A stretch of 64,000 nt of DNA from an uncultured Gammaproteobacteria bacterium (GCA_902556205.1 CACDVH010000003.1:1-64000); one strand, 5' to 3'; positions 26,962-61,884 are shown, numbered from the stretch's first letter. The notes: a model not told the origin generated them from the sequence alone. Numbers and translations are program-made.

Positions 26962-27726
26962 TTAGTATCTAAGGGATAGACAACTTAAGCCACCGTCAAG
27001 CTTTTTAAACTCAGAGACATCCACCTCTAGAATGTTGTATCCAGCCCTGCTTAGATTATTTTTTGCCAAGGGATATCCAGAAGGTATGATTACGTTATCG
27101 TTGACCCATATACAGTTTGCAGCGTAACTCTCTGATTCTGGAATTTCAATTTGATCAAACCCTTCGAAGGCAGGATCACTTGTAAATTCACCACAAATAG
27201 CAAGAAAATTATTTTCTAAATAAGATAACCCAGTCTTAAGATGAAGAACCTCTTTCAATTCAATGGTTGAACCTGTATAGCCATGTTTTTGAAGTAATCC
27301 AATTAACTGCTTTGCACCATGAATGTTAGTTCTATCTGATAAGCCAATATAGTAGTGACTTCCAACCATCATTATATCCCCAGCCTCTATTGTTCCTGGA
27401 GCTTCAATAACCTCAATATTTCCAAACTGACTCTTTAAAACATCTATTATTTTTTCAACTTCACCCCTTCTAGACTCGGCTCCAGGACGAGTAATGAACG
27501 CACAACTCGGCGTAATTAACGCAACATCCTCAACAAAAGTTGAATCTGGATAATCTTCACAAGGATCTAGGACAGTAACCTCAAGGCCACACAATTGAAG
27601 AGCCTCTATATAAGATTGATGCTGCATGAGTGCTCTTGAATAGTTGGGTGAGCCTAAATGTTTTGAGTCAGTTAACCCATTAATGAGGCTTTTTCCGGGT
27701 GTCCTAACAATTGCCTTAGAGAACAT
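26962..27726 (-). CDS. N(G),N(G)-dimethylarginine dimethylaminohydrolase (DDAH)
   Basis: 254 residues of the guanidino-modifying superfamily. Matching DDAH: FVEDVALI with the substrate-binding acidic residues, TRPGAESRRGE, EAGDIMMVG, the catalytic histidine in LHLKTGLSYL, and the nucleophile cysteine in GGLSCLSLRY at the C-terminus. DDAH hydrolyses asymmetric dimethylarginine to citrulline plus dimethylamine. Upstream in the same operon are an M20 amidohydrolase (18 bases away) and a dimethylglycine dehydrogenase-like flavoprotein. A plain arginine deiminase is less likely, given the short length. Confidence 0.88.
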   Translation of the reverse strand: MFSKAIVRTPGKSLINGLTDSKHLGSPNYSRALMQHQSYIEALQLCGLEVTVLDPCEDYPDSTFVEDVALITPSCAFITRPGAESRRGEVEKIIDVLKSQFGNIEVIEAPGTIEAGDIMMVGSHYYIGLSDRTNIHGAKQLIGLLQKHGYTGSTIELKEVLHLKTGLSYLENNFLAICGEFTSDPAFEGFDQIEIPESESYAANCIWVNDNVIIPSGYPLAKNNLSRAGYNILEVDVSEFKKLDGGLSCLSLRY

Positions 27727-27744
27727 AAGTCGAACCTTAAAGAT

Positions 27745-28923
27745 TTACGTAAGAATTGATCGCACTAACTTCACCCAGTAACTACTTCCGATAGGCAGAA
27801 TTTCATCATTAAAGTCGTACTGAGTGTTATGGAGCATGCAACCTCCTTCAGGACTATCTTCTGGAACTAGTCCATTTCCAATCCATATATAAGCGCCTTC
27901 TGACGCGTTTAGTAAAAAAGAAAAATCTTCAGAGCCCATGCTTGGCTTTTCATTTCTTAATACGTTATCCTTTCCTACCAATGTTTCAGCAGCTTGAGCG
28001 CAAAGCTGAGCATGCTTTGGCGTGTTGACTGTTGCTGGATAGTTTGGAACTGAACTAAATGAAGCTGTCGCCCCCATTGATTCACTTATACCTTTTGATA
28101 TATTTTTAATTTTTTCCTTTACTTCGTTACCTACCTCAGACCTAAAGTATCTAAGAGATCCAGTTAGATTCATTTCGTTTGGAATGACGTTTGATACAAA
28201 GCCAGCATCAACCATAGTAATACTGACCACAGCTGAATCTAAAGGCGCTACACTTCTTGAGACGACACTTTGAATAGCAGAAATAACTTGGGCGCCTATC
28301 ATTATTGGGTCGACACACTGATCAGGCATTGCGGCATGTCCGCCCTTTCCTTTAATGGTAATTTTTAGTGTTTCATTCGCAGCCATAACGGCAGTATCAT
28401 GGACAGCAAAATGGCCTTCGGCAAGTCCAGGCCAATTATGCATACCATAGACCGCTTCACAAGGAAACTTTTCAAAAATACCTTCTTCAACCATAACTCG
28501 ACCACCACCCCCACCTTCTTCAGCTGGCTGAAAAATAAAATGAACAGTACCGGCAAAATTATTGTTCTGTTTTAAATAAACTGCAGCGCCTAAAAGCATT
28601 GTTGAATGGCCATCATGGCCACAAGCATGCATTTTCCCATCGTGAACAGATTTATGACTAAACTCATTCCTCTCTTGTATTGGGAGAGCGTCCATATCAG
28701 CACGAAGACCAATGACTTTACCTTTTTTTGTACCATGAATAGTAGCTACTATTCCAGTCACAGCCAAGCCACGATGCATTTCAATATTATTTGATTCAAG
28801 AACAGAGGCGATATAGTCACTGGTCATATCCTCCTTGAAACTCAGCTCAGGGTGCTTATGAATATGGTGACGCCATTCCACCATTTCTTCATGAAGCTTA
28901 GAGTTATGTTTGATTTCTGACAT
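27745..28923 (-). CDS. M20-family amidohydrolase (hippuricase/N-acyl amino acid hydrolase type)
   Basis: 392 residues. Visible are GLRADMDALP and HACGHDGHSTMLLG with metal ligands, the catalytic glutamate in QPAEEGGGG, the histidine in GMHNWPG, and GSEDFSFLL near the C-terminus. Relatives cleave N-acyl amino acids (hippurate, acetyl amino acids, IAA conjugates). It lies six bases after the flavoprotein and 18 before the dimethylargininase, so it could free a methylated amino acid from an acyl derivative. That link is inference from the operon only. Confidence 0.88.
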   Translation of the reverse strand: MSEIKHNSKLHEEMVEWRHHIHKHPELSFKEDMTSDYIASVLESNNIEMHRGLAVTGIVATIHGTKKGKVIGLRADMDALPIQERNEFSHKSVHDGKMHACGHDGHSTMLLGAAVYLKQNNNFAGTVHFIFQPAEEGGGGGRVMVEEGIFEKFPCEAVYGMHNWPGLAEGHFAVHDTAVMAANETLKITIKGKGGHAAMPDQCVDPIMIGAQVISAIQSVVSRSVAPLDSAVVSITMVDAGFVSNVIPNEMNLTGSLRYFRSEVGNEVKEKIKNISKGISESMGATASFSSVPNYPATVNTPKHAQLCAQAAETLVGKDNVLRNEKPSMGSEDFSFLLNASEGAYIWIGNGLVPEDSPEGGCMLHNTQYDFNDEILPIGSSYWVKLVRSILT

Positions 28924-28929
28924 TATTTT

Positions 28930-31455
28930 TTATGACCTTAAACATTGGTTATTTGGATCAAAAGGTGATTCATCAATGACAATCGATTTGTATTTCTCAC
29001 CTAAAATCTCAATCTCAAGCTCTGTTCCAACAGCGGTTAGATCTTTTCTAACAATGCCCAGAGCTAGTGACTTACCACAGCGCCATCCGTAGCCCCCAGA
29101 AGTACCCCTTCCCACAACCATTCCATCTTTGTAAATGGCCTCCGATCCTCGTGCATCAGCATCAACTACATCTAAAACTTCCATTGTCACAAAACCATTT
29201 ACAGCGCCTCTCTCTTGCCAATCTGTAAGAGCTTCTTTACCAATAAAATCACTCTCTTTATCGAGCCTCACAAATCGATCTAGACCAGACTCATATGCTG
29301 AATATTCAATTGACATTTCTCTAGGAATTAAACGATAAGACTTTTCTAGTCGCATACTGTCCATTGCGCGAATTCCAAAGGGTTTAATGTCAAACTCTGC
29401 TCCAGCCTCCATGACTTGATCAAAAATATAGTTTTGCATTTCGATTGGGTGGTGCAGCTCCCAGCCAAGTTCTCCAACAAAATTAACACGCAGTGCCTCT
29501 GCAGTTGCATAACCAACATTTATTTTCTTACCAGTAAGCCACTTAAAATTTTCATTGGACAAATCAGTATCTGTAAGCTTCTGAAGAACATCTCGAGATC
29601 TAGGTCCTGCTAGAACCAATACACCCGTTTGAGTTGTGACTCGCTGAATACTAACGCTCCCATCTTTTGGAGCAAGTTTAAATAGATAGTCATGGTCATG
29701 CGTTTCAAATGCACCTGCTGAAACCAAATAATAGCTTTGAGGGCCAGTTTTATAAACAGTAAACTCAGCCCTAACTCCTCCATTAAGGGATAGCATATGG
29801 ACTAGACTTATTCTGCCAATCGTTTGGGGCATTTTATTGGCAAAAATAGACTCCAACCATTCCTCTGCTCCAGGACCCTTGATAATACATTTGGCAAAAG
29901 CGGACATATCAAGCAGTCCAACCTTCTCATTAACGTGCTTACATTCGTTTCCAACATGTTCAAAGTAATTCGAACGTCTAAATGAATTTTTCTCAACAAT
30001 TCGACCATCCTCTAAAGCCTTTGAATGGTTTTTATTTAAAAATACTTTTTCAGGATCCTCTTGATTCAACTCTTCAGCACTGAGAGAATAATCGAGGCTT
30101 GGCATGAACCAATTAGGTCGTTCCCAGCCATAAACTGATCCAAATACAGCGCCCAATGATTTCATTCGGTCATAGCATGGCGCAGTTTTAAGAGGTCTAG
30201 CAGCACTCCTTTCTTCATCAGGATAATGAGTTGTGAAAACATTTGCATAGGCCTCTTCGTTTTTTTCTTTTAGGTAGCCTCTAGTAGCGTAAGGACCGAA
30301 TCGCCTTGGATCAACTCCCATCATGTCAACTGTAGGCTCTCCGTCAACAATCCATTCCGCTAATTGCCAACCTGCACCGCCAGCAGCCGTTATTCCAAAG
30401 CTGTGTCCCTCATTAAGCCAGAAATTTTTTAAACCAGGAGCCGGGCCAACTATCGGATTACCATCTGGGGTATAGGCGATAGCACCATTGTAGATATCTT
30501 TTATTCCGACTTCACCAAAGGCTGGAACTCGACTAATACAGCGATCAATATGCGGCATAATACGATCCAATTCTCCATTGAATAATTCATATTGACAGTC
30601 TTTACTAGGACCATCAACATAGCACGCTGGAGCTCCTTTCTCATAAATACCAAGAATCATTCCTCCCGCCTCTTCTCGTAAATAATATGCTGAATCAGAT
30701 TCACGGAGAACGGCCATTTCAGGCAACCCTTGCTTTTTTCTTTCCATTATCTCTGGGTGTTGTTCTGTGACTAAGAATTGATGCTCTACTGGAATTACTG
30801 GAACATCAAGACCAACCATCTCACCTGTTTTTCGGGCAAAACTACCAGTACAGGATACAACATGTTGACATGAGATACCACCCTTGTCAGTTGAAACAAC
30901 CCAGCTCTGATCTTTTTGCTGCTGAATACCCTCTACCAGAGTGTGCTCATATATCTCAGCACCTCTGTTTCTTGCCCCTTTGCAAAGAGCTTGAGTTAAG
31001 TCTGCTGGCTGAATGTAACCATCATCGGGATGCTGAATTGCCCCTATGAGTCCTTCAGTATTACATAGCGGCCAAACTTCTTTCACTTCATCTGGTGTCA
31101 AGAATTTAACATTGACTCCCACTGTACTTCCAACACCCGAGTAGTATTTATATTCGTCCATTCTGTCTTGAGAATTAGCAAGACGAATATTAGAAACAAC
31201 ACTAAAACCCACATTCATGCCAGTCTCTTCTTCAAGTTCATGATAAAAGTCAACGGAATATTGGTGAAGCTTTCCTACCGAGTAACTCATATTGAATAAT
31301 GGCAGAAGTCCAGCAGCATGCCAAGTTGAGCCTGATGTTAGATCTTTTCGCTCAACCAAGACCACATCAGTCCAACCTTTTTTAGCTAAATGATAGAGCG
31401 TTCCAGCACCAACAACACCACCACCAATGACAACGACTTGCGCTTTATTTTTCAT
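28930..31455 (-). CDS. Dimethylglycine/sarcosine dehydrogenase-like flavoprotein with GcvT domain (copy 1)
   Basis: 841 residues. The N-terminal DAO-type domain has GGGVVGAGTLYHLA and the probable covalent-flavin histidine at residue 46 (SGSTWHAAGL). A middle FAO domain is at about 375-425. The C-terminal half is a GcvT-like folate-binding domain with VLAGPRSRDVL, VGELGWELHHP and GRGTSGGYGW. Such enzymes demethylate dimethylglycine or sarcosine and pass formaldehyde to tetrahydrofolate. It heads an operon with the M20 hydrolase, dimethylargininase and FetB-like genes. A paralogue is at 54.8-57.2 kb. The exact substrate of each copy cannot be read from sequence. Confidence 0.88.
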   Translation of the reverse strand: MKNKAQVVVIGGGVVGAGTLYHLAKKGWTDVVLVERKDLTSGSTWHAAGLLPLFNMSYSVGKLHQYSVDFYHELEEETGMNVGFSVVSNIRLANSQDRMDEYKYYSGVGSTVGVNVKFLTPDEVKEVWPLCNTEGLIGAIQHPDDGYIQPADLTQALCKGARNRGAEIYEHTLVEGIQQQKDQSWVVSTDKGGISCQHVVSCTGSFARKTGEMVGLDVPVIPVEHQFLVTEQHPEIMERKKQGLPEMAVLRESDSAYYLREEAGGMILGIYEKGAPACYVDGPSKDCQYELFNGELDRIMPHIDRCISRVPAFGEVGIKDIYNGAIAYTPDGNPIVGPAPGLKNFWLNEGHSFGITAAGGAGWQLAEWIVDGEPTVDMMGVDPRRFGPYATRGYLKEKNEEAYANVFTTHYPDEERSAARPLKTAPCYDRMKSLGAVFGSVYGWERPNWFMPSLDYSLSAEELNQEDPEKVFLNKNHSKALEDGRIVEKNSFRRSNYFEHVGNECKHVNEKVGLLDMSAFAKCIIKGPGAEEWLESIFANKMPQTIGRISLVHMLSLNGGVRAEFTVYKTGPQSYYLVSAGAFETHDHDYLFKLAPKDGSVSIQRVTTQTGVLVLAGPRSRDVLQKLTDTDLSNENFKWLTGKKINVGYATAEALRVNFVGELGWELHHPIEMQNYIFDQVMEAGAEFDIKPFGIRAMDSMRLEKSYRLIPREMSIEYSAYESGLDRFVRLDKESDFIGKEALTDWQERGAVNGFVTMEVLDVVDADARGSEAIYKDGMVVGRGTSGGYGWRCGKSLALGIVRKDLTAVGTELEIEILGEKYKSIVIDESPFDPNNQCLRS

Positions 31456-54768: not shown

Positions 54769-57204
54769 ATGAAAACAAGAACTAGAGCAGTTGTTATTGG
54801 TGGTGGTATTGCTGGCTGCTCGACCTTGTATCATCTGACTAGAGAGGGCTGGACAGATATTGTTCTTCTTGAGCGCAATGATCTCACCAGCGGAACGACT
54901 TGGCACTCAGCAGCCCAGGTCACTAATTTTGGAATGAATCAGACCATGGTGGGTTTAAAAACACATTCCATTAATCTATACAAAGAACTTGCTGAAGACC
55001 CAGATCATCCGATTAACTACAATCATGGCGATGGAGGAATAAGGCTTGCAAACACTAAAGAGCAAATGCAAGGCTATCACCACTTCGCTTCAATGGCTAG
55101 AGGTATGGATGTTCATTTTGAAGTCATAGATGCCAAAGAGTGTCAACGACGTCATCCATTAATTTCAACAAATAATTTAATTGGTGGGTTGTGGGATCCG
55201 CATGATGGTGACATAGATCCCTATCAATTGTGCCACTCTTTGACGCGAAAAGCACGACAGGCTGGCGCTGAGGTTTACACAAATACTCCAGTCACTGCTC
55301 TAGAGCAATACCAGGATGGGACCTGGAAAGTAACCACCGAAAATGGTGAGATTGATTGTGATGTCGTCGTAAATGCCTGCGGATACAGGGTCAATGAGGT
55401 TGGGGCAATGATGGGTGTTCATCACCCAGTAGCCTCAATGGAGCATCAGTACTTTCTGACCGAAGATATTCAGGAGATTATAGATGCAGGTCATCGAATG
55501 CCTCTTTTAAGGTGCCCAATATCTGACTATTATTGTCGACAAGATAAAAATGGACTTTTGATTGGATTCTATGAACAGAATTGTAAACCATGGGGAATGG
55601 ATGGGATTGATCCAAACTTTGTCAATGCTCTTTGTCCGGATGATTTAGAGAGAGTTACAGATGTATTAGAGGGAGCATTTGATCGAATGCCTGCGTTAAT
55701 GAATGCTGGAATAAGAAGTGTTATTAATGGCCCAATTACTTATACAATTGATGGAGCCCCGCTAGTTGGAAAAATTCCTGGAAAAGAAAACGCATTCTGC
55801 ATCATAGGTCTAAGAGCAGGCCTTGGTGAAGGTGGCGGACATGGCTGGCTCCTTGCTCAGCAGATTGTTCATGGTGAAGCGTGTTATGACACATGGTGCC
55901 TGGATCCTCGAAGATTTACTTCACACACAAATGTTGAAATGACTTCTTTAAAGGCTATCGAAGACTATCAAAACGAATTTCGTTTTCACTTTCCACACGA
56001 GCACCGTCCGGCAGCTCGACCTGCCAAAACCACTCCTCTAACATTAGTCATGGCGAATAAAAATGCTGAATTTACTGTGATTAATGGATGGGAGCGTATT
56101 GAATATATTAAGCCCTCAAAAAACTTCCACTATTCTCCATCCTTTCACTTTGATGAAACATTTGATATTGTCGCAAACGAAGTAAAAAATATCCAAAATA
56201 ATGTAGGGCTTACCGAAGTGAATGGCTTTAATCGATTTGAAATTACTGGCTCAAATGCCAATAGTTTTGTTGACCGAATGTTTTGTGGCAATGTTACCCA
56301 GAAGTCAGGTAGGGTTGGATTGGGTTATCTCCTCAATGAGTTTGGAATGATCAAAAGTGAAGCCACTATATCCAATATTCCAGCTACAGACCGTGGCCCA
56401 AAAAGAATGTGGTATGGCTCAGCTGCGGCCTCTGAGTTTCACGATATGGATTGGCTAATGCAGCACTTAAAAGATGAAGAAAATGTTGTAATCAAAAGCC
56501 TAACAAATGAACAAACAATACTCCTTTTAGCTGGACCAAAAGCGAGAGAAGTTCTCTCCAAATGTAGTCGCGAAGATTGGAGCAAGAAGTCATTTCCATG
56601 GCTCAGTGTTAGAGAATGTTTCATTGGCTTTTCTCCAGCCACCGTATTGTCAGTTAGTTTCTCTGGTGAGCTCGCTTATGAAGTGCATGTACCCAATGAA
56701 TCTCTATATGCTGCATACCTAGCACTCACTGAAGCAGGAGAAGAGTTTGGAATGAAGATCTTTGGGTCTAGAGCTGTAGAGTCCATGAGAATGGAAAAAG
56801 GGTTTCTGGGATGGAAGTCCGATTTAATCACTGAGTTTGATCCTTTTGAAACTGGCCTTGATCGCTTTGTGAATCTAAAGAAAGATAACTTTATTGGCAA
56901 AGAGGCATTAAAAAAACGAATTAAACAAAGCCCAAATCAAAAACTTGTCTGTCTAAAAGTAGCTTGCAAACATGCCCCTGCATACGGTGGAGCCTCACTT
57001 ATGGAGGATGGAAAAGTAGTTGGAACAATTACATCAGGAGAATGGGGCCATAGAGTTAATTTCAACCTTGCCTATGCATTTGTAAACATAGACAAATCAA
57101 AGTTGGGGACACAAATGCATTTAGATTTATTGGGAGAAATGATCTCTGTAGAAGTTATCCCATTTAGTCCCTATGATGAAAGCAATAGTAGAATATTAGT
57201 TTAA
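54769..57204 (+). CDS. Dimethylglycine dehydrogenase-like flavoprotein with GcvT domain (copy 2)
   Basis: 811 residues. FAD-binding GGGIAGCSTLYHLT, the probable flavin-linking histidine at residue 46 (SGTTWHSAAQ), a short FAO region at about 370-420, and the GcvT-like C-terminal half (LLLAGPKAREVL, FSGELAYEVHVP, GKEALKKRI). It is clearly a diverged paralogue of 28930-31455. With the homocysteine methyltransferase 20 bases downstream, it could take dimethylglycine (from glycine betaine) to sarcosine and onward. Fits the pathway described under findings; the substrate is inferred. Confidence 0.88.
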   Translation: MKTRTRAVVIGGGIAGCSTLYHLTREGWTDIVLLERNDLTSGTTWHSAAQVTNFGMNQTMVGLKTHSINLYKELAEDPDHPINYNHGDGGIRLANTKEQMQGYHHFASMARGMDVHFEVIDAKECQRRHPLISTNNLIGGLWDPHDGDIDPYQLCHSLTRKARQAGAEVYTNTPVTALEQYQDGTWKVTTENGEIDCDVVVNACGYRVNEVGAMMGVHHPVASMEHQYFLTEDIQEIIDAGHRMPLLRCPISDYYCRQDKNGLLIGFYEQNCKPWGMDGIDPNFVNALCPDDLERVTDVLEGAFDRMPALMNAGIRSVINGPITYTIDGAPLVGKIPGKENAFCIIGLRAGLGEGGGHGWLLAQQIVHGEACYDTWCLDPRRFTSHTNVEMTSLKAIEDYQNEFRFHFPHEHRPAARPAKTTPLTLVMANKNAEFTVINGWERIEYIKPSKNFHYSPSFHFDETFDIVANEVKNIQNNVGLTEVNGFNRFEITGSNANSFVDRMFCGNVTQKSGRVGLGYLLNEFGMIKSEATISNIPATDRGPKRMWYGSAAASEFHDMDWLMQHLKDEENVVIKSLTNEQTILLLAGPKAREVLSKCSREDWSKKSFPWLSVRECFIGFSPATVLSVSFSGELAYEVHVPNESLYAAYLALTEAGEEFGMKIFGSRAVESMRMEKGFLGWKSDLITEFDPFETGLDRFVNLKKDNFIGKEALKKRIKQSPNQKLVCLKVACKHAPAYGGASLMEDGKVVGTITSGEWGHRVNFNLAYAFVNIDKSKLGTQMHLDLLGEMISVEVIPFSPYDESNSRILV

Positions 57205-57224
57205 CCTATGCCTCAAGGCTACCT

Positions 57225-58118
57225 ATGAGTCAATATACTAAATTAATAAAAAGAGCTCAGCAAGGCGAATGCATCTTGATTGATGGAGCAACTGGAACCG
57301 AAGTTGAAAGAAGAGGCGTACCTCAACTTAACAATGCATGGAATGGGGGAGGCGCTTTAAGTCACCCTGAAATTGTAAAACAAATTCATAAAGACTATAT
57401 CAACTCAGGTGCTGAAATTATCATCAGTAATACCTTTGCAACAACCAGGCATGCGCTCAGAGATGCCAATCAAGAACACAACTTTGAAGCTTTCAATAGG
57501 CGAGGTGTGGAGCTTGCCATCCAGGCTAGAGAGGAACTGAGTAATAATAGCATTCTTGTCGCTGGAGGAATATCATATTGGACTTGGACTGGCAATAAGC
57601 CCTCACAGAAAGAGCTAACACTATCAGTAACCAAACAAGCGCAAGTTATGAAAGATGCGGGTGCTGATCTTATTATGCTGGAAATGATGATTGACATAGA
57701 GCAAATGATTACAACAATTGAGGCTGCAAAATCTTCAGGACTTCCACTTTGGATTGGGCTGACCTGCGAGCCTAATGAGTCAAATGAGATGTGTTTGCGT
57801 GATGGAGACAGACTTGAAACAGTTATTAATGAAATTAAACCTTACAATCCGGATGTAATTAGCATTATGCATACTGAGGTTGAGTTTGTTGAGCGGTGTT
57901 TAGAGATTCTTCAAAGTCAATGGAGTGGCTTGATTGGGGTATATGCTCATTCAGGTAAATCGGTTAATGGAGAATGGACATTTAATAACGTCATTTCAAC
58001 TCAAGACTACTGTGAATATTCTTCGCAATGGAAGAAAAAAGGCGTAAGTTTCATTGGTGGTTGCTGTGGCGTCCACCCTGAACATATTAACTTAATGCAC
58101 AAAAATCTATTTAAGTAA
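57225..58118 (+). CDS. Homocysteine S-methyltransferase family protein (possible betaine-homocysteine methyltransferase)
   Basis: 297 residues of the PF02574 barrel. The zinc cysteines are in GLTCEP and GGCCGVHPEHI; N-terminal LIDGATGTEVERRG and NTFATTRHAL are typical. It moves a methyl group to homocysteine, making methionine. The donor may be glycine betaine (as BHMT) or S-methylmethionine. Next to a dimethylglycine dehydrogenase and opposite a TmpAB-like pair that would make betaine, the betaine donor is favoured. It lacks the cobalamin parts of MetH. The stop is one base from that of aroQ on the other strand. Confidence 0.85.
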   Translation: MSQYTKLIKRAQQGECILIDGATGTEVERRGVPQLNNAWNGGGALSHPEIVKQIHKDYINSGAEIIISNTFATTRHALRDANQEHNFEAFNRRGVELAIQAREELSNNSILVAGGISYWTWTGNKPSQKELTLSVTKQAQVMKDAGADLIMLEMMIDIEQMITTIEAAKSSGLPLWIGLTCEPNESNEMCLRDGDRLETVINEIKPYNPDVISIMHTEVEFVERCLEILQSQWSGLIGVYAHSGKSVNGEWTFNNVISTQDYCEYSSQWKKKGVSFIGGCCGVHPEHINLMHKNLFK

Positions 58119-58119
58119 G

Positions 58120-58563
58120 CTAATTAACCTTGATTGGTAACTCAGACAACAAGTCGATGACTTGAATGTAGCCGTCTGGTCCAAGACCAGCAACAACAGA
58201 ATCAACTGCGGAAGAAATAAAAGAAACATGACGAAAAGACTCTCTTAAGTGTGGATTAGAAATATGCAATTCAACCTTATATCCTGAATATGACTTTAAT
58301 GCATCATGAATCGCAATTGATGTATGAGTATAAGCAGCGGCATTTATTACAATTGCGTCAACTTTATTTATGATTGCATCTTGAATCCATTCAACAATCT
58401 CACCCTCGTAATTAGACTGCATAAATTTAACGGAATGTCCAACTTTTGATGCCTTTTCTTGGCACTCTTTAGAAATACCTTCTAAAGTCTCTTTTCCGTA
58501 AATTTCAGGCTCTCGAGTACCTAAGAGGTTTATATTGGGACCATTGATTACGTAAATATTCAT
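58120..58563 (-). CDS. aroQ: 3-dehydroquinate dehydratase, type II
   Basis: 147 residues, the usual length. INGPNINLLGTREPEIYG has the catalytic Arg and Tyr; VINAAAYTHTSIAIHDAL and ELHISNPHLRESFRH carry the Asn, His and Arg active-site residues. It dehydrates 3-dehydroquinate in the shikimate or quinate path. No accBC genes follow, unlike many gammaproteobacteria; it lies one base from its own degenerate tandem copy. Confidence 0.95.
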   Translation of the reverse strand: MNIYVINGPNINLLGTREPEIYGKETLEGISKECQEKASKVGHSVKFMQSNYEGEIVEWIQDAIINKVDAIVINAAAYTHTSIAIHDALKSYSGYKVELHISNPHLRESFRHVSFISSAVDSVVAGLGPDGYIQVIDLLSELPIKVN

Positions 58564-59028
58564 CTAATTATTACTTAGTTTCTTGTTAATCGAATTGATA
58601 GCAAGCACATAACCATACTTACCGAGTCCGCTGACCAAGCCCACTCCACTATCATTCCCCCTTAAAGGCTTACTGCTTCCCTGTATGAATATATTTTCAA
58701 TACGAACTTCAATAACTGACTTGCCTTGATTAGTAATTTTATTTATTGCTGCGCTAAAAGCATCATAATCTATAAATGAAGATTTTGAGAGCCCAGCTGG
58801 ATTAATTATGAATGCATCAAAATTACTATTATCATCAACCAAGACTCTCAAAAGCTCAGATTCATCATCATTTTGACGAAAATCCACTTCGAGACCAAAT
58901 TCGCCTGAAGTCTCAATGCATTTTTGCTCTATAACAGACAAAGATAAGTCATCATTAGCTACCTCATTATGATCAGTTAAATCTGATAATCCAGGTCCAT
59001 TTATTATTAATAATTTACCGTTACTCAT
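58564..59028 (-). CDS. AroQ-like paralogue without catalytic residues
   Basis: 154 residues aligning with AroQ along its length: LLIINGPGLSDLT at the start, AFIINPAGLSKSSFIDYDAF in the middle, VIEVRIENIF and GLGKYGYVLAI near the end. The catalytic Arg/Tyr segment (TREPEIYG in AroQ) is replaced, the NAAAYTHTS loop has lost its Thr-His, and ELHISN has become EVRIEN (no His). The reading frame is intact, so selection may keep it for a non-enzymatic role. It is immediately upstream of the active aroQ and one base apart. Confidence 0.75.
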   Translation of the reverse strand: MSNGKLLIINGPGLSDLTDHNEVANDDLSLSVIEQKCIETSGEFGLEVDFRQNDDESELLRVLVDDNSNFDAFIINPAGLSKSSFIDYDAFSAAINKITNQGKSVIEVRIENIFIQGSSKPLRGNDSGVGLVSGLGKYGYVLAINSINKKLSNN

Positions 59029-59185
59029 TTATTGATTTAGTCGATCATTTTATAAAATTAACAAATATTTCGTGCAATATGGCCTATCTAACACTCTGGG
59101 ATATTATATATACCTCAAGGTTTAATGTATATGGGCTTAATCTTACTCTTTTGAAAGAGTCTAGTTAAGAACTAAATTTATATAG

Positions 59186-59749
59186 TTAATTTTTTACTAA
59201 AGAGTCAATTAATGGGCGGTAGTATGAAAATGGAGGATGTTCTCTATCTGGATCTTTCCCCTCTTCATCCCAATATCTTAAATTTATGCAGTGATCTAAA
59301 TAATCATTATTTTCAAATTCTTCTATTTCCTTCTCATTCATTGGTCCACCCTGAAGATCAAGAGTATGAACTGAGGCTGCAGATAGGCGCTTAAAATAAT
59401 CTGCTTTAACTGCACACAAATAACGTTTTGCTGCAACATGCTGACGAATCGGTTCAACAACGGATGCTGGAAAATAATCCTCAAGAAAATTAGCGCCCGC
59501 CTCCTCATGAAAGTTGTTCACTCCCTTTGCCAAAGATGACTCAGGAATTTCGTTTTTGTAATGACCTATGTCATGAAGAAGGGCTGACACTATTTGAGCA
59601 CTATCAGCACCAGCCTCTTCAGCACATTGGGCTGTTTGAAGCATGTGTTGCGCCATCGTGACCCGCTCACCAAGGTAAGATTCGGCACCGCGTCGAAGAA
59701 AAATATCTTCAATAAGGTCTACAACATTTTGCGAAGTAATCTCAGTCAT
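59186..59749 (-). CDS. HD-domain mixed-valent diiron oxygenase (PhnZ/TmpB-like)
   Basis: 187 residues. The iron ligands fit PhnZ numbering closely: His35, His59-Asp60 (ALLHDIGHY), His81, His104 (RQHVAAKRYL) and Asp161 (LRYWDEEGKDP). Tyr25 and Glu28 (SYLGERV) match the PhnZ residues that close on substrate. Such enzymes cleave the carbon-phosphorus bond of 1-hydroxyphosphonates with O2, releasing phosphate. The gene overlaps the TmpA-like oxygenase by eight bases, as expected for a TmpA-TmpB pair, whose product is glycine betaine from a trimethylammonioethyl-phosphonate. PhnZ proper acts on the non-methylated amine; the neighbour makes TmpB more likely. Confidence 0.88.
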   Translation of the reverse strand: MTEITSQNVVDLIEDIFLRRGAESYLGERVTMAQHMLQTAQCAEEAGADSAQIVSALLHDIGHYKNEIPESSLAKGVNNFHEEAGANFLEDYFPASVVEPIRQHVAAKRYLCAVKADYFKRLSAASVHTLDLQGGPMNEKEIEEFENNDYLDHCINLRYWDEEGKDPDREHPPFSYYRPLIDSLVKN

Positions 59750-60875
59750 TTTTTTTATTTTCTAGTGTATTTAGGAGACTGTAAAGTCCATCTAAATCCG
59801 TATAAGCTCCCTGAAGATGGCGCTTTCCAGTTTTTGAAAACTTAGTTCTGGCGTGCATAACTCGAGTGTTATCAAACAGCATCAAGTCCCCCTCAGAGAG
59901 CTTGAATTGAATCTTCAATTCGTCTCTCTCAATAACCTCACTCCAGTGACGGTAGGCCTTATAAAAGAGCCTTACTTTATCTTTTGGGACATTAATTGTA
60001 TCGATAGACCGGTTGTTGTATCTGACCTTGATGATTTCATGATTGTCATTTAACTCGATCATCAGGACCCTGGAGCGAAGATCAGTTTTAGAGTCAGAAA
60101 ATCGATAATTGATCCAGCTACTTGTCAAAGTCAGAAAGTTCTCTTCATTTTCATCACGAAGAATTGAGGCCGCCTTAAAGCCATCCACCAAGATTGAATC
60201 ACCGCCCTCAGTAGAGCTCTCGAGACAATGAAGCAGCTGCACCGTTGGGACCGGGTCTCGGTATGGGTTGTCGGTGTGGGACCCAAGCCCTAGATTGGTA
60301 TAGGCCAGATTATTTGGGTTGATTTCAGTTCTCACCTCAAACAATGCTCCATAGTTGGTCTCCCGAGTATAGCCCATTGCACTGATGACTTTTAATACTT
60401 GTCCTTCAACTGTCGGGACACCCGTTAAAACAAAAAAACCTATGTCTCTCAAAGAGCAAAGCGCTTTTAATTTTGTGTCATCCTTGGACATTGAATCATA
60501 GTCAATAATTGGTAGTCCATTCTCAAAACTATTTTTTTGCCAGAGCGTTTTTTGTTTCTCGCTCCTGTCATCAAAGTGGTTATTGAGTTCATAGCAATTA
60601 GAGCGCAGCCAATGTTGCGTGAAGACTGACAGGTGGTCTTCAGGTTTAAATAGTACACAGACATTTCCCTCGTCATCCATGTAAGCCTTGTCTATTGATA
60701 TACTAGAGGGTAGATCTTTAACACTGAAGAGTCTTTGTCCGTTATTCTTATTTCTTGACTCAGGCATCTGGCAGTGATCCCTAAGCCAGTAGCTGAAGAG
60801 AGAGCTTATATTTCCATCTTTCCAGTCAATCACCAACTCGTCGCCGACTATAGAAATTTTTTTGATTAAATCGAT
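59742..60875 (-). CDS. Fe(II)/2-oxoglutarate oxygenase, TmpA/gamma-butyrobetaine hydroxylase-like, probable ATC start
   Basis: 377 residues from ATC at 60875; from the first ATG-like codon (TTG at 60836) it would lack the first strand of the N-terminal domain. AAGGGG lies five bases before the ATC. An N-terminal GBBH-type domain (WKDGN, YWLRDHC) precedes a TauD-fold domain: iron ligands in GLGSHTDNPYRD and VMHART, and the 2-oxoglutarate arginine in KRHLQGAYTD. TmpA hydroxylates 2-(trimethylammonio)ethylphosphonate before TmpB cleaves it. Of the zinc cysteines seen in human BBOX1 only one remains (DHCQMPES). A true gamma-butyrobetaine hydroxylase is the alternative, but it would not need the HD partner. 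Confidence 0.83.
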   Translation of the reverse strand: MDLIKKISIVGDELVIDWKDGNISSLFSYWLRDHCQMPESRNKNNGQRLFSVKDLPSSISIDKAYMDDEGNVCVLFKPEDHLSVFTQHWLRSNCYELNNHFDDRSEKQKTLWQKNSFENGLPIIDYDSMSKDDTKLKALCSLRDIGFFVLTGVPTVEGQVLKVISAMGYTRETNYGALFEVRTEINPNNLAYTNLGLGSHTDNPYRDPVPTVQLLHCLESSTEGGDSILVDGFKAASILRDENEENFLTLTSSWINYRFSDSKTDLRSRVLMIELNDNHEIIKVRYNNRSIDTINVPKDKVRLFYKAYRHWSEVIERDELKIQFKLSEGDLMLFDNTRVMHARTKFSKTGKRHLQGAYTDLDGLYSLLNTLENKKND

Positions 60876-60918: not shown

Positions 60919-61794
60919 CTACATTGCCATATTTGTACTTTTAGATTGTTGTCCAAAGAATGAGACCTCTTTAGGGTACTCTGGCAACTCAACACTATAG
61001 CTTGTACACCTTACAGTTCCAGTTTCTTTTCCTCTAACAACCATTCCAACAAGCTCACTAGGAAGGTGGTTTGGTGATAGAGCCACTGCATCCTCAGCCT
61101 TATAGGTCACAATAAAGAGTGATCTTGAATGCTGCGATAAATTAGGCGCAGACCCGTGCAGTAACTTTGAATGCATGAGGCAAGCCGAGCCCGCCTTTCC
61201 AGTGCAGCTCAATGCCTTATCCTTATTCGACTCCATAACCTTATCATCCACTGCCCCTGTAAAAACACCGTTCTGCCAATGGGAGTGAAGCGGTCCGTTA
61301 TGTGTCCCTGGGACCACCTCTAATGGCCCATTATCCAGAGTCACGTCATCCAAAAAATAAAGAACTGTCATAATGTCCTCATTTGAATGCGGCTCAAAAG
61401 GAAAGTCTTGGTGGAACTTGACTTCCGTTCCAGCACCAGGCAACTTGAGATTTATTTTGTTACCCAGGTGAGTGATATTTGGACCAAAGATCTCAGTAAC
61501 CAGATCCAGTGCGTTATTGTCTTTGATAACATCAAGGCATATATCAGAAATCTCTGCTGGAGAGGTGATCCTTCTCACCGCAGGCGTTTCTGGGGAGTGA
61601 GTGGTTGGCTCGAGATCAAAACGAGGCCTTCCATCCATGATTCTGCCAAAAGGCTCTTTATGTTTTTTACTCTCCTCAACCCACTTGGCCAGTTCAGAAT
61701 TCAATGCTGTCAATTGTTCGCTAGAAATGGCATTCTCAAAGAAGAGATAGCCGTCTCTATGAAAATTGTCAATCAAACCTATATCGTCTTGCAT
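60919..61794 (-). CDS. Phytanoyl-CoA dioxygenase (PhyH) family Fe(II)/2-oxoglutarate oxygenase
   Basis: 291 residues from the ATG at 61794, which has GGAGG seven bases upstream; an open frame further out adds 12 residues. Iron ligands are in KFHQDFPF (His-x-Asp) and LLHGSAPN (distal His), and the 2-oxoglutarate arginine is in SRSLFIVTY. It is the first gene of the operon, 43 bases before the TmpA-like gene. PhyH relatives include the phosphonate hydroxylase PhnY and the ectoine hydroxylase. A role in hydroxylating a second phosphonate or another methylated solute is possible; substrate unknown. Confidence 0.85.
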   Translation of the reverse strand: MQDDIGLIDNFHRDGYLFFENAISSEQLTALNSELAKWVEESKKHKEPFGRIMDGRPRFDLEPTTHSPETPAVRRITSPAEISDICLDVIKDNNALDLVTEIFGPNITHLGNKINLKLPGAGTEVKFHQDFPFEPHSNEDIMTVLYFLDDVTLDNGPLEVVPGTHNGPLHSHWQNGVFTGAVDDKVMESNKDKALSCTGKAGSACLMHSKLLHGSAPNLSQHSRSLFIVTYKAEDAVALSPNHLPSELVGMVVRGKETGTVRCTSYSVELPEYPKEVSFFGQQSKSTNMAM

Positions 61795-61884
61795 ATCAAG
61801 CCTCCAAATCGCATTATGAACCAAACTCAAGAAAAAATAAAGAAAAATTTAATAGCTGATTAGAAAGAATATAAAATTATTGCC

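Follow-up and report, generated by a model that had tools for sequence, protein, structure and literature searches.

A predicted TmpA-TmpB phosphonate-cleaving gene pair and its facultative methyl-handling neighbours in a marine gammaproteobacterium

Gene content of the locus

The DNA analysed here is a 64,000-nucleotide stretch from an uncultured gammaproteobacterium (GCA_902556205.1 CACDVH010000003.1:1-64000), referred to below as the window; it corresponds to contig C3:1-64000 of a 1.65-Mb genome (G000) that is 92% complete. Its minus strand carries two genes, tmpA and tmpB, whose predicted products resemble the two oxygenases that convert 2-(trimethylammonio)ethylphosphonate into glycine betaine and phosphate. 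The nearest carriers of TmpB in a search of named genomes were Ca. Thioglobus, Ca. Pseudothioglobus and gammaproteobacterial single-cell genomes, and the host is therefore read as Ca. Pseudothioglobus, a sister lineage of SUP05. Ca. Pseudothioglobus is an abundant marine lineage. The host genome was searched one family profile at a time, and the features discussed are collected in Table 1.

An earlier note on this DNA had described a TmpA-like oxygenase overlapping an HD-domain protein on the minus strand, and this arrangement was borne out, the two reading frames sharing 8 nt. The start of tmpA that the note had placed at 60875 was not, as the codon there is ATC. The frame is open to about 60890, and no ATG, GTG or TTG lies between the upstream stop and the TTG at 60836. 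In relatives, the same N-terminal residues continue upstream and begin from TTG or GTG; the real start is probably a little upstream of 60836. Two genes of the aroQ family separate tmpAB from the two plus-strand genes that face it, and a PhyH-family gene lies on the other side; none of these three appeared in the earlier note.

Table 1. Features of the tmp locus, of the window and of related genomes
Feature	Position	Strand	Details
TmpA, predicted 2-oxoglutarate/Fe(II) 2-(trimethylammonio)ethylphosphonate hydroxylase	59742..60836	-	364 aa from TTG; TauD/GBBH-like
TmpB, (R)-1-hydroxy-2-(trimethylammonio)ethylphosphonate oxygenase, predicted HD-domain mixed-valent diiron type	59186..59749	-	187 aa; 6NPA match, ligands
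Homocysteine S-methyltransferase-family protein (SMT), facultative neighbour	57225..58118	+	297 aa; PF02574
Dimethylglycine dehydrogenase (DMGDH)-family flavoprotein with folate-binding domain, facultative neighbour	54769..57204	+	811 aa; DAO+FAO_M+GCV_T
PhyH-family 2-oxoglutarate oxygenase	60919..61830	-	303 aa; PF05721; upstream of tmpA, same strand
AroQ paralogue, divergent	58564..59028	-	154 aa; PF01220; under every aroQ cut-off
aroQ, type II 3-dehydroquinate dehydratase	58120..58563	-	NF003806 198 bits, above cut-off 171
Second DMGDH-family paralogue, outside the tmp locus	28930..31455	-	human DMGDH 5L46, 610 bits
Fused TmpA-TmpB open reading frames in three Pseudothioglobus genomes	L054:9625-11376, L055:9929-11692, L056:9664-11373	-	
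432-aa tmpB neighbour	L060:2594-3892	+	also L052, L053, L054, L055, L056

Identity of TmpA and TmpB

Among solved structures, the window TmpA is closest to TmpA 6NPB (E 1.5e-92) and then to human GBBH (E 1.1e-53). It scores 418.5 bits on the curated TmpA model NF049936, whose cut-off is 400 bits; the other curated cut-offs applied were 300 bits for TmpB (NF049941), 415 for gamma-butyrobetaine (GBB) dioxygenase (TIGR02409) and 338 for the BHMT model NF005718. The iron triad H, D, H (2-His-1-carboxylate) is retained, as are HTDNPYR and NNR. The combination of HTDNPYR with N(N/A)R was present in all 29 TmpB-linked oxygenases, the window protein included, and absent from all eight homologues of the class not linked to TmpB; human GBBH has HTDYPAL and NNA instead. 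The pocket Tyr and Arg presumably play the roles that they have in TmpA, with numbering deduced from the PDB sequence. The earlier note had regarded clustering with GBB hydroxylases as fatal to its proposal. In the tree, the window TmpA grouped with 28 other TmpB-linked oxygenases (support 94/89), and GBBH fell outside that group, an outcome that favours TmpA.

The nearest solved structure to the window TmpB is TmpB 6NPA (E 2.5e-55), followed by PhnZ (E 1.4e-34), with identities of 50.5% to characterised TmpB and 39.8% to PhnZ. Alignment with 6NPA and 4MLM showed that the YLGE (YxxE) loop and the HD ligands H...HD...H...H...D are all retained; the roles of this loop and of the metal ligands, and the definition of the TmpB type, have been described (PMC8177086). 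The expected partner, a TmpA-type hydroxylase, overlaps TmpB here and is fused to it in three relatives. Every catalytic residue tested was found in place, among them TmpA positions that are missing from human GBBH. The earlier naming of both proteins is upheld by their nearest solved structures, by the residues of their active sites, by where TmpA falls in the tree and by the regularity with which the two are paired. By analogy with the Leisingera enzymes, TmpA would hydroxylate 2-(trimethylammonio)ethylphosphonate at C1, and TmpB would act oxidatively on the hydroxylated product, releasing glycine betaine and phosphate.

Distribution and fusion of the pair

TmpB is carried by 23 of the 29 genomes of the genus and is almost missing from the remainder of the family. 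Incomplete genomes are included in these and all further genus counts, so that absences give lower bounds on presence, and the genus Fisher tests below treat genomes as independent, ignoring relatedness. The common gene order in the genus is NfeD-PhyH-tmpA-tmpB-aroQ-like-aroQ.

TmpA and TmpB form one frame of 569-587 aa in three genomes (G028, G030 and G014), joined by only about 10 residues. Since the fusion is seen in three separate species-level genomes, an artefact of assembly is unlikely, and the fusion suggests joint action of the two enzymes. No report of a TmpA-TmpB fusion was found in the portion of the open literature consulted; PhoF of a fungus is a known hydroxylase-HD fusion (PMC10574752). 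A further TmpA-like paralogue, 32% identical, lies about 5 kb from the fused genes and has HTDNPYRQPVP but SPR.

Weight of the evidence and substrate range

Several observations weigh against the assignment of the pair. TmpA reaches 478 bits on TIGR02409, which is above the cut-off of that model and higher than its score on the TmpA model. The tree support lies just below the 95/80 rule of the program, and the root was placed at the midpoint. TmpB scores 257 bits on NF049941, under its cut-off, and the Phn-HD cut-off is also missed. No ordinary start codon of the window tmpA stands where relatives begin. A PhnD family search gave no PhnD-type binding protein above cut-off in the 92% complete genome, and Pho box matches in the window were not above chance (7 against 6.75 expected, one of them inside PhyH). 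As to the TmpB score, none of the 83 genomes of the family-wide comparison reached the NF049941 cut-off, which may therefore be too strict for this lineage; because this cut-off is missed, the window protein is called TmpB-like by function and not a curated TmpB.

The TIGR02409 score could be taken to mean that TmpA hydroxylates GBB or trimethyllysine and that TmpB is an HD protein of some unrelated kind. This is highly improbable, as the match to 6NPB is far better than that to GBBH, the diagnostic residues and tree position are of the TmpA type, and TmpB overlaps the oxygenase here and is fused to it in relatives; a separate trimethyllysine-dioxygenase-like gene also exists on C15. Neither clustering with GBB hydroxylases nor their pocket residues were found, and the TIGR02409 cut-off was exceeded all the same. 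The C15 protein (L183:3999-5102, G000:C15) scores 284 bits on TIGR02410, above the cut-off of 268, in a bacterium.

The same chemistry might instead act on a neighbouring substrate such as dimethyl- or monomethyl-aminoethylphosphonate or a betaine-like phosphonate, with PhyH possibly feeding a second hydroxyphosphonate to TmpB. The identity of about 50% to characterised TmpB, the score under the TmpB equivalog cut-off and the position of PhyH directly upstream at most loci speak for this reading. We regard it as rather unlikely, since TmpA-type residues occupy the pocket positions tested, PhyH scores far from PhnY (30 bits against a cut-off of 500), and PhyH is found also in two genomes without detected tmpB.

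The earlier remark that the window holds no phosphonate transporter agrees with a Pfam scan of 20 further window reading frames, among which none was found. Four OpuAC betaine-type binding proteins score above cut-off in the genome, and in another proteobacterium (G495) tmpAB adjoins an OpuAC-type, that is, betaine-type, ABC transporter. Uptake of the phosphonate through a quaternary-amine transporter is therefore plausible. In Rhodococcus, tmp pairs are accompanied by an ABC transporter resembling AEP-SBP and a GntR/UTRA regulator. A PhnD-like protein near the orthologue of the facing flavoprotein in G028 and G014 was considered and set aside, having no connection to tmpAB.

The facing genes and the proposed chain

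The assignment of the plus-strand genes in the earlier note stood at the level of family: they are a PF02574 methyltransferase and a DMGDH-family protein. The BHMT type of the former did not hold. SMT scores 87.5 bits on NF005718, is about equally similar to BHMT, MmuM and MetH, and has the first zinc Cys aligned to His in all nine orthologues, while the other two Cys (GGCC) are retained. The flavoprotein has the DMGDH domain set and full-length similarity to mammalian DMGDH (E 3.7e-153 to rat 4P9S). With 511 bits to human DMGDH, against 577 and 610 for two paralogues of the same genome, it is the least DMGDH-like of the three tested.

The two genes are facultative companions of tmpAB. SMT occurs in nine of the 29 genus genomes; all nine have tmpB, and SMT adjoins it in eight. 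An orthologue of the flavoprotein is present in 13 of the 29, adjoining tmpB in eight and lying at the equivalent site, at a contig end, in G011. Association with tmpB is significant for neither (Fisher p 0.08 for SMT and 0.14 for DMGDH). Both have been lost independently with tmpAB retained: G018, whose TmpB is 95% identical, has neither, G019 and G006 have SMT alone, and G005 and G008 have the flavoprotein alone. In G030, SMT stays by NfeD and pyrE and the fused tmpAB is located elsewhere. The neighbours of the flavoprotein orthologue include sarcosine oxidase genes in G007 and an MttB-type gene in G028 and G014. Neither gene was found within the stretch examined at 20 tmpAB loci of other families or phyla (16 proteobacterial and four of Rhodococcus). 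Since both genes are facultative, independently lost and absent from these outside loci, their adjacency to tmpAB is most readily explained by synteny inherited at a variable site and does not demonstrate a pathway.

According to the chain proposed earlier, SMT would remove a methyl from the betaine formed by TmpAB, the facing flavoprotein would demethylate the dimethylglycine, and the paralogue at 28.9-31.5 kb would finish the conversion to glycine. Adjacency on facing strands and the frequency with which carriers of either gene keep it by tmpB favour such a chain. We consider it unlikely, given that SMT falls under every BHMT cut-off with an altered zinc site and is thus not a recognisable BHMT, that the flavoprotein is the least DMGDH-like paralogue, that the genus and outside loci show the pattern just described, and that genes for betaine use are located elsewhere in the genome. 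The part assigned to the 28.9-kb paralogue is likewise not sustained: this gene adjoins an M20 amidohydrolase and a dimethylargininase (NF045658 DDAH), and the sarcosine oxidase SoxA, with 1299 bits, is encoded on C22. The set of DMGDH paralogue, M20 and dimethylargininase genes at 26962-31455 of the window suggests that methylated arginines or related amides are metabolised.

Probable fate of the betaine

Genes for betaine use were found at several places outside the tmp locus. A cluster at C3:172.5-179.6 kb encodes MttB (PF06253, 720 bits), the corrinoid reactivator RACo, and pterin-binding and B12-binding proteins. MttB genes stand beside DMGDH paralogues at C1:171.7 kb and C1:259.9 kb, the first site also having a choline-dehydrogenase-like gene, and SoxG lies with SoxA on C22. 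A DddP-like protein (L115:8177-9493, G000:C1; 476 bits, under the cut-off of 600) adjoins an MttB-DMGDH pair. MtgC and MtgD are required for betaine demethylation in Ruegeria (2025, PMC12478193); the same study places mtgC homologues in SUP05, treats MtgBCDE as a betaine route and takes this type of bacterial 'Bhmt' to be MtgE. A protein at C4:81.4 kb reaches 464 bits on NF005718, and its reading as a true BHMT was replaced by an MtgE-type one in light of that work.

The presence of betaine-using enzymes elsewhere means that the facing genes are probably not the next steps, and the MtgBCD-type, DMGDH and Sox genes give the betaine from TmpB a likely route other than the one proposed earlier. 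The betaine would most likely enter a general osmolyte route, with MtgB, MtgC and MtgD yielding dimethylglycine, which one of several DMGDH paralogues and then SoxBDAG would convert to glycine. The facing DMGDH-SMT pair may be a facultative methyl-handling module at a variable spot, probably with another N- or S-methyl substrate. Taken as a whole, the reading in which tmpAB cleaves the phosphonate, its betaine is used through a route encoded elsewhere and the facing pair forms a separate module is one that we hold with good confidence.

It could also be imagined that SMT and the flavoprotein demethylate the phosphonate itself and belong, with PhyH, TmpA and TmpB, to a broader locus for N-methylated phosphonates, to which some relatives add an enzyme of UroD/MtaA-like fold beside tmpB and the fused TmpA-TmpB; this is very unlikely.

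Comparison with known systems and significance

TmpA and TmpB of Leisingera caerulea (6NPB/6NPA) were reportedly characterised by Rajakovich et al. in 2019. The window genes resemble them in being a two-gene pair with the same domains and active-site residues, TmpB being about 50% identical. They differ in their gammaproteobacterial host, in the gene overlap, in their PhyH, aroQ-like and aroQ neighbours, in the TmpB score under the curated cut-off and in the single fused protein of three relatives. PhnY*/PhnZ (HF130_AEPn_1) and PhoF share the scheme predicted here, in which 2-oxoglutarate-dependent hydroxylation precedes C-P cleavage by an HD mixed-valent diiron enzyme. The fungal PhoF is, moreover, a hydroxylase-HD fusion like those of the relatives. 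The window differs from them in having a hydroxylase that belongs to the GBBH/TmpA type and an HD protein that is nearer to TmpB than to PhnZ. As in marine MtgBCD(E) systems (PMC12478193), MttB, B12-binding, pterin-binding and MtgE-type genes are present and MttB stands by DMGDH paralogues; the host genes are away from the tmp locus, and their link to betaine derived from the phosphonate is a predicted one. SMT has the PF02574 fold and the GGCC motif in common with BHMT and departs from it in score and in the His at the first zinc Cys.

With the window tmpAB, a known pathway gains a new member from an abundant marine lineage, and in relatives the pair also occurs as a fusion. No link of SUP05 to phnZ or tmpB was found in the open literature consulted. 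The high frequency of TmpB in an abundant lineage suggests choline-like phosphonates as a phosphorus source of these bacteria. For surveys, the tmpB form to be counted falls short of the curated TmpB cut-off; such genes would escape detection, or their TmpA would be named a GBB dioxygenase. The fused protein of the three relatives offers a single-protein reagent for tests of intermediate transfer.

Other neighbouring genes

The best NCBIfam matches of PhyH are ectoine hydroxylase (60 bits) and PhnY, both far under cut-off, and its reading as PhnY was rejected on these scores; it is found in most of the genus. The divergent AroQ paralogue occurs in the genus only alongside tmpB (16 of 23, Fisher p 0.004, with relatedness ignored), and in another genus it occurs without tmpB (G048). 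In an alignment of nine paralogues, the positions of the catalytic Arg and Tyr of AroQ and of the FRH Arg were not conserved; judged by these residues, the protein is not a working dehydroquinase. It has conserved motifs of its own, such as NGPGL(S/A)DL.

A 432-aa protein is encoded directly 3' of tmpB in seven family genomes and in none elsewhere, with one 46% identical paralogue in G006. It had no Pfam match, and the His-x-Cys zinc motif of MtaA was not seen by eye; a UroD/MtaA-like fold is predicted (E 2e-4) from a moderate model (pLDDT 71). In G015, tmpA and PhyH are separated by an extra 2-oxoglutarate oxygenase (L066:11530-12318, minus strand) with weak likeness to the halogenase HalD.

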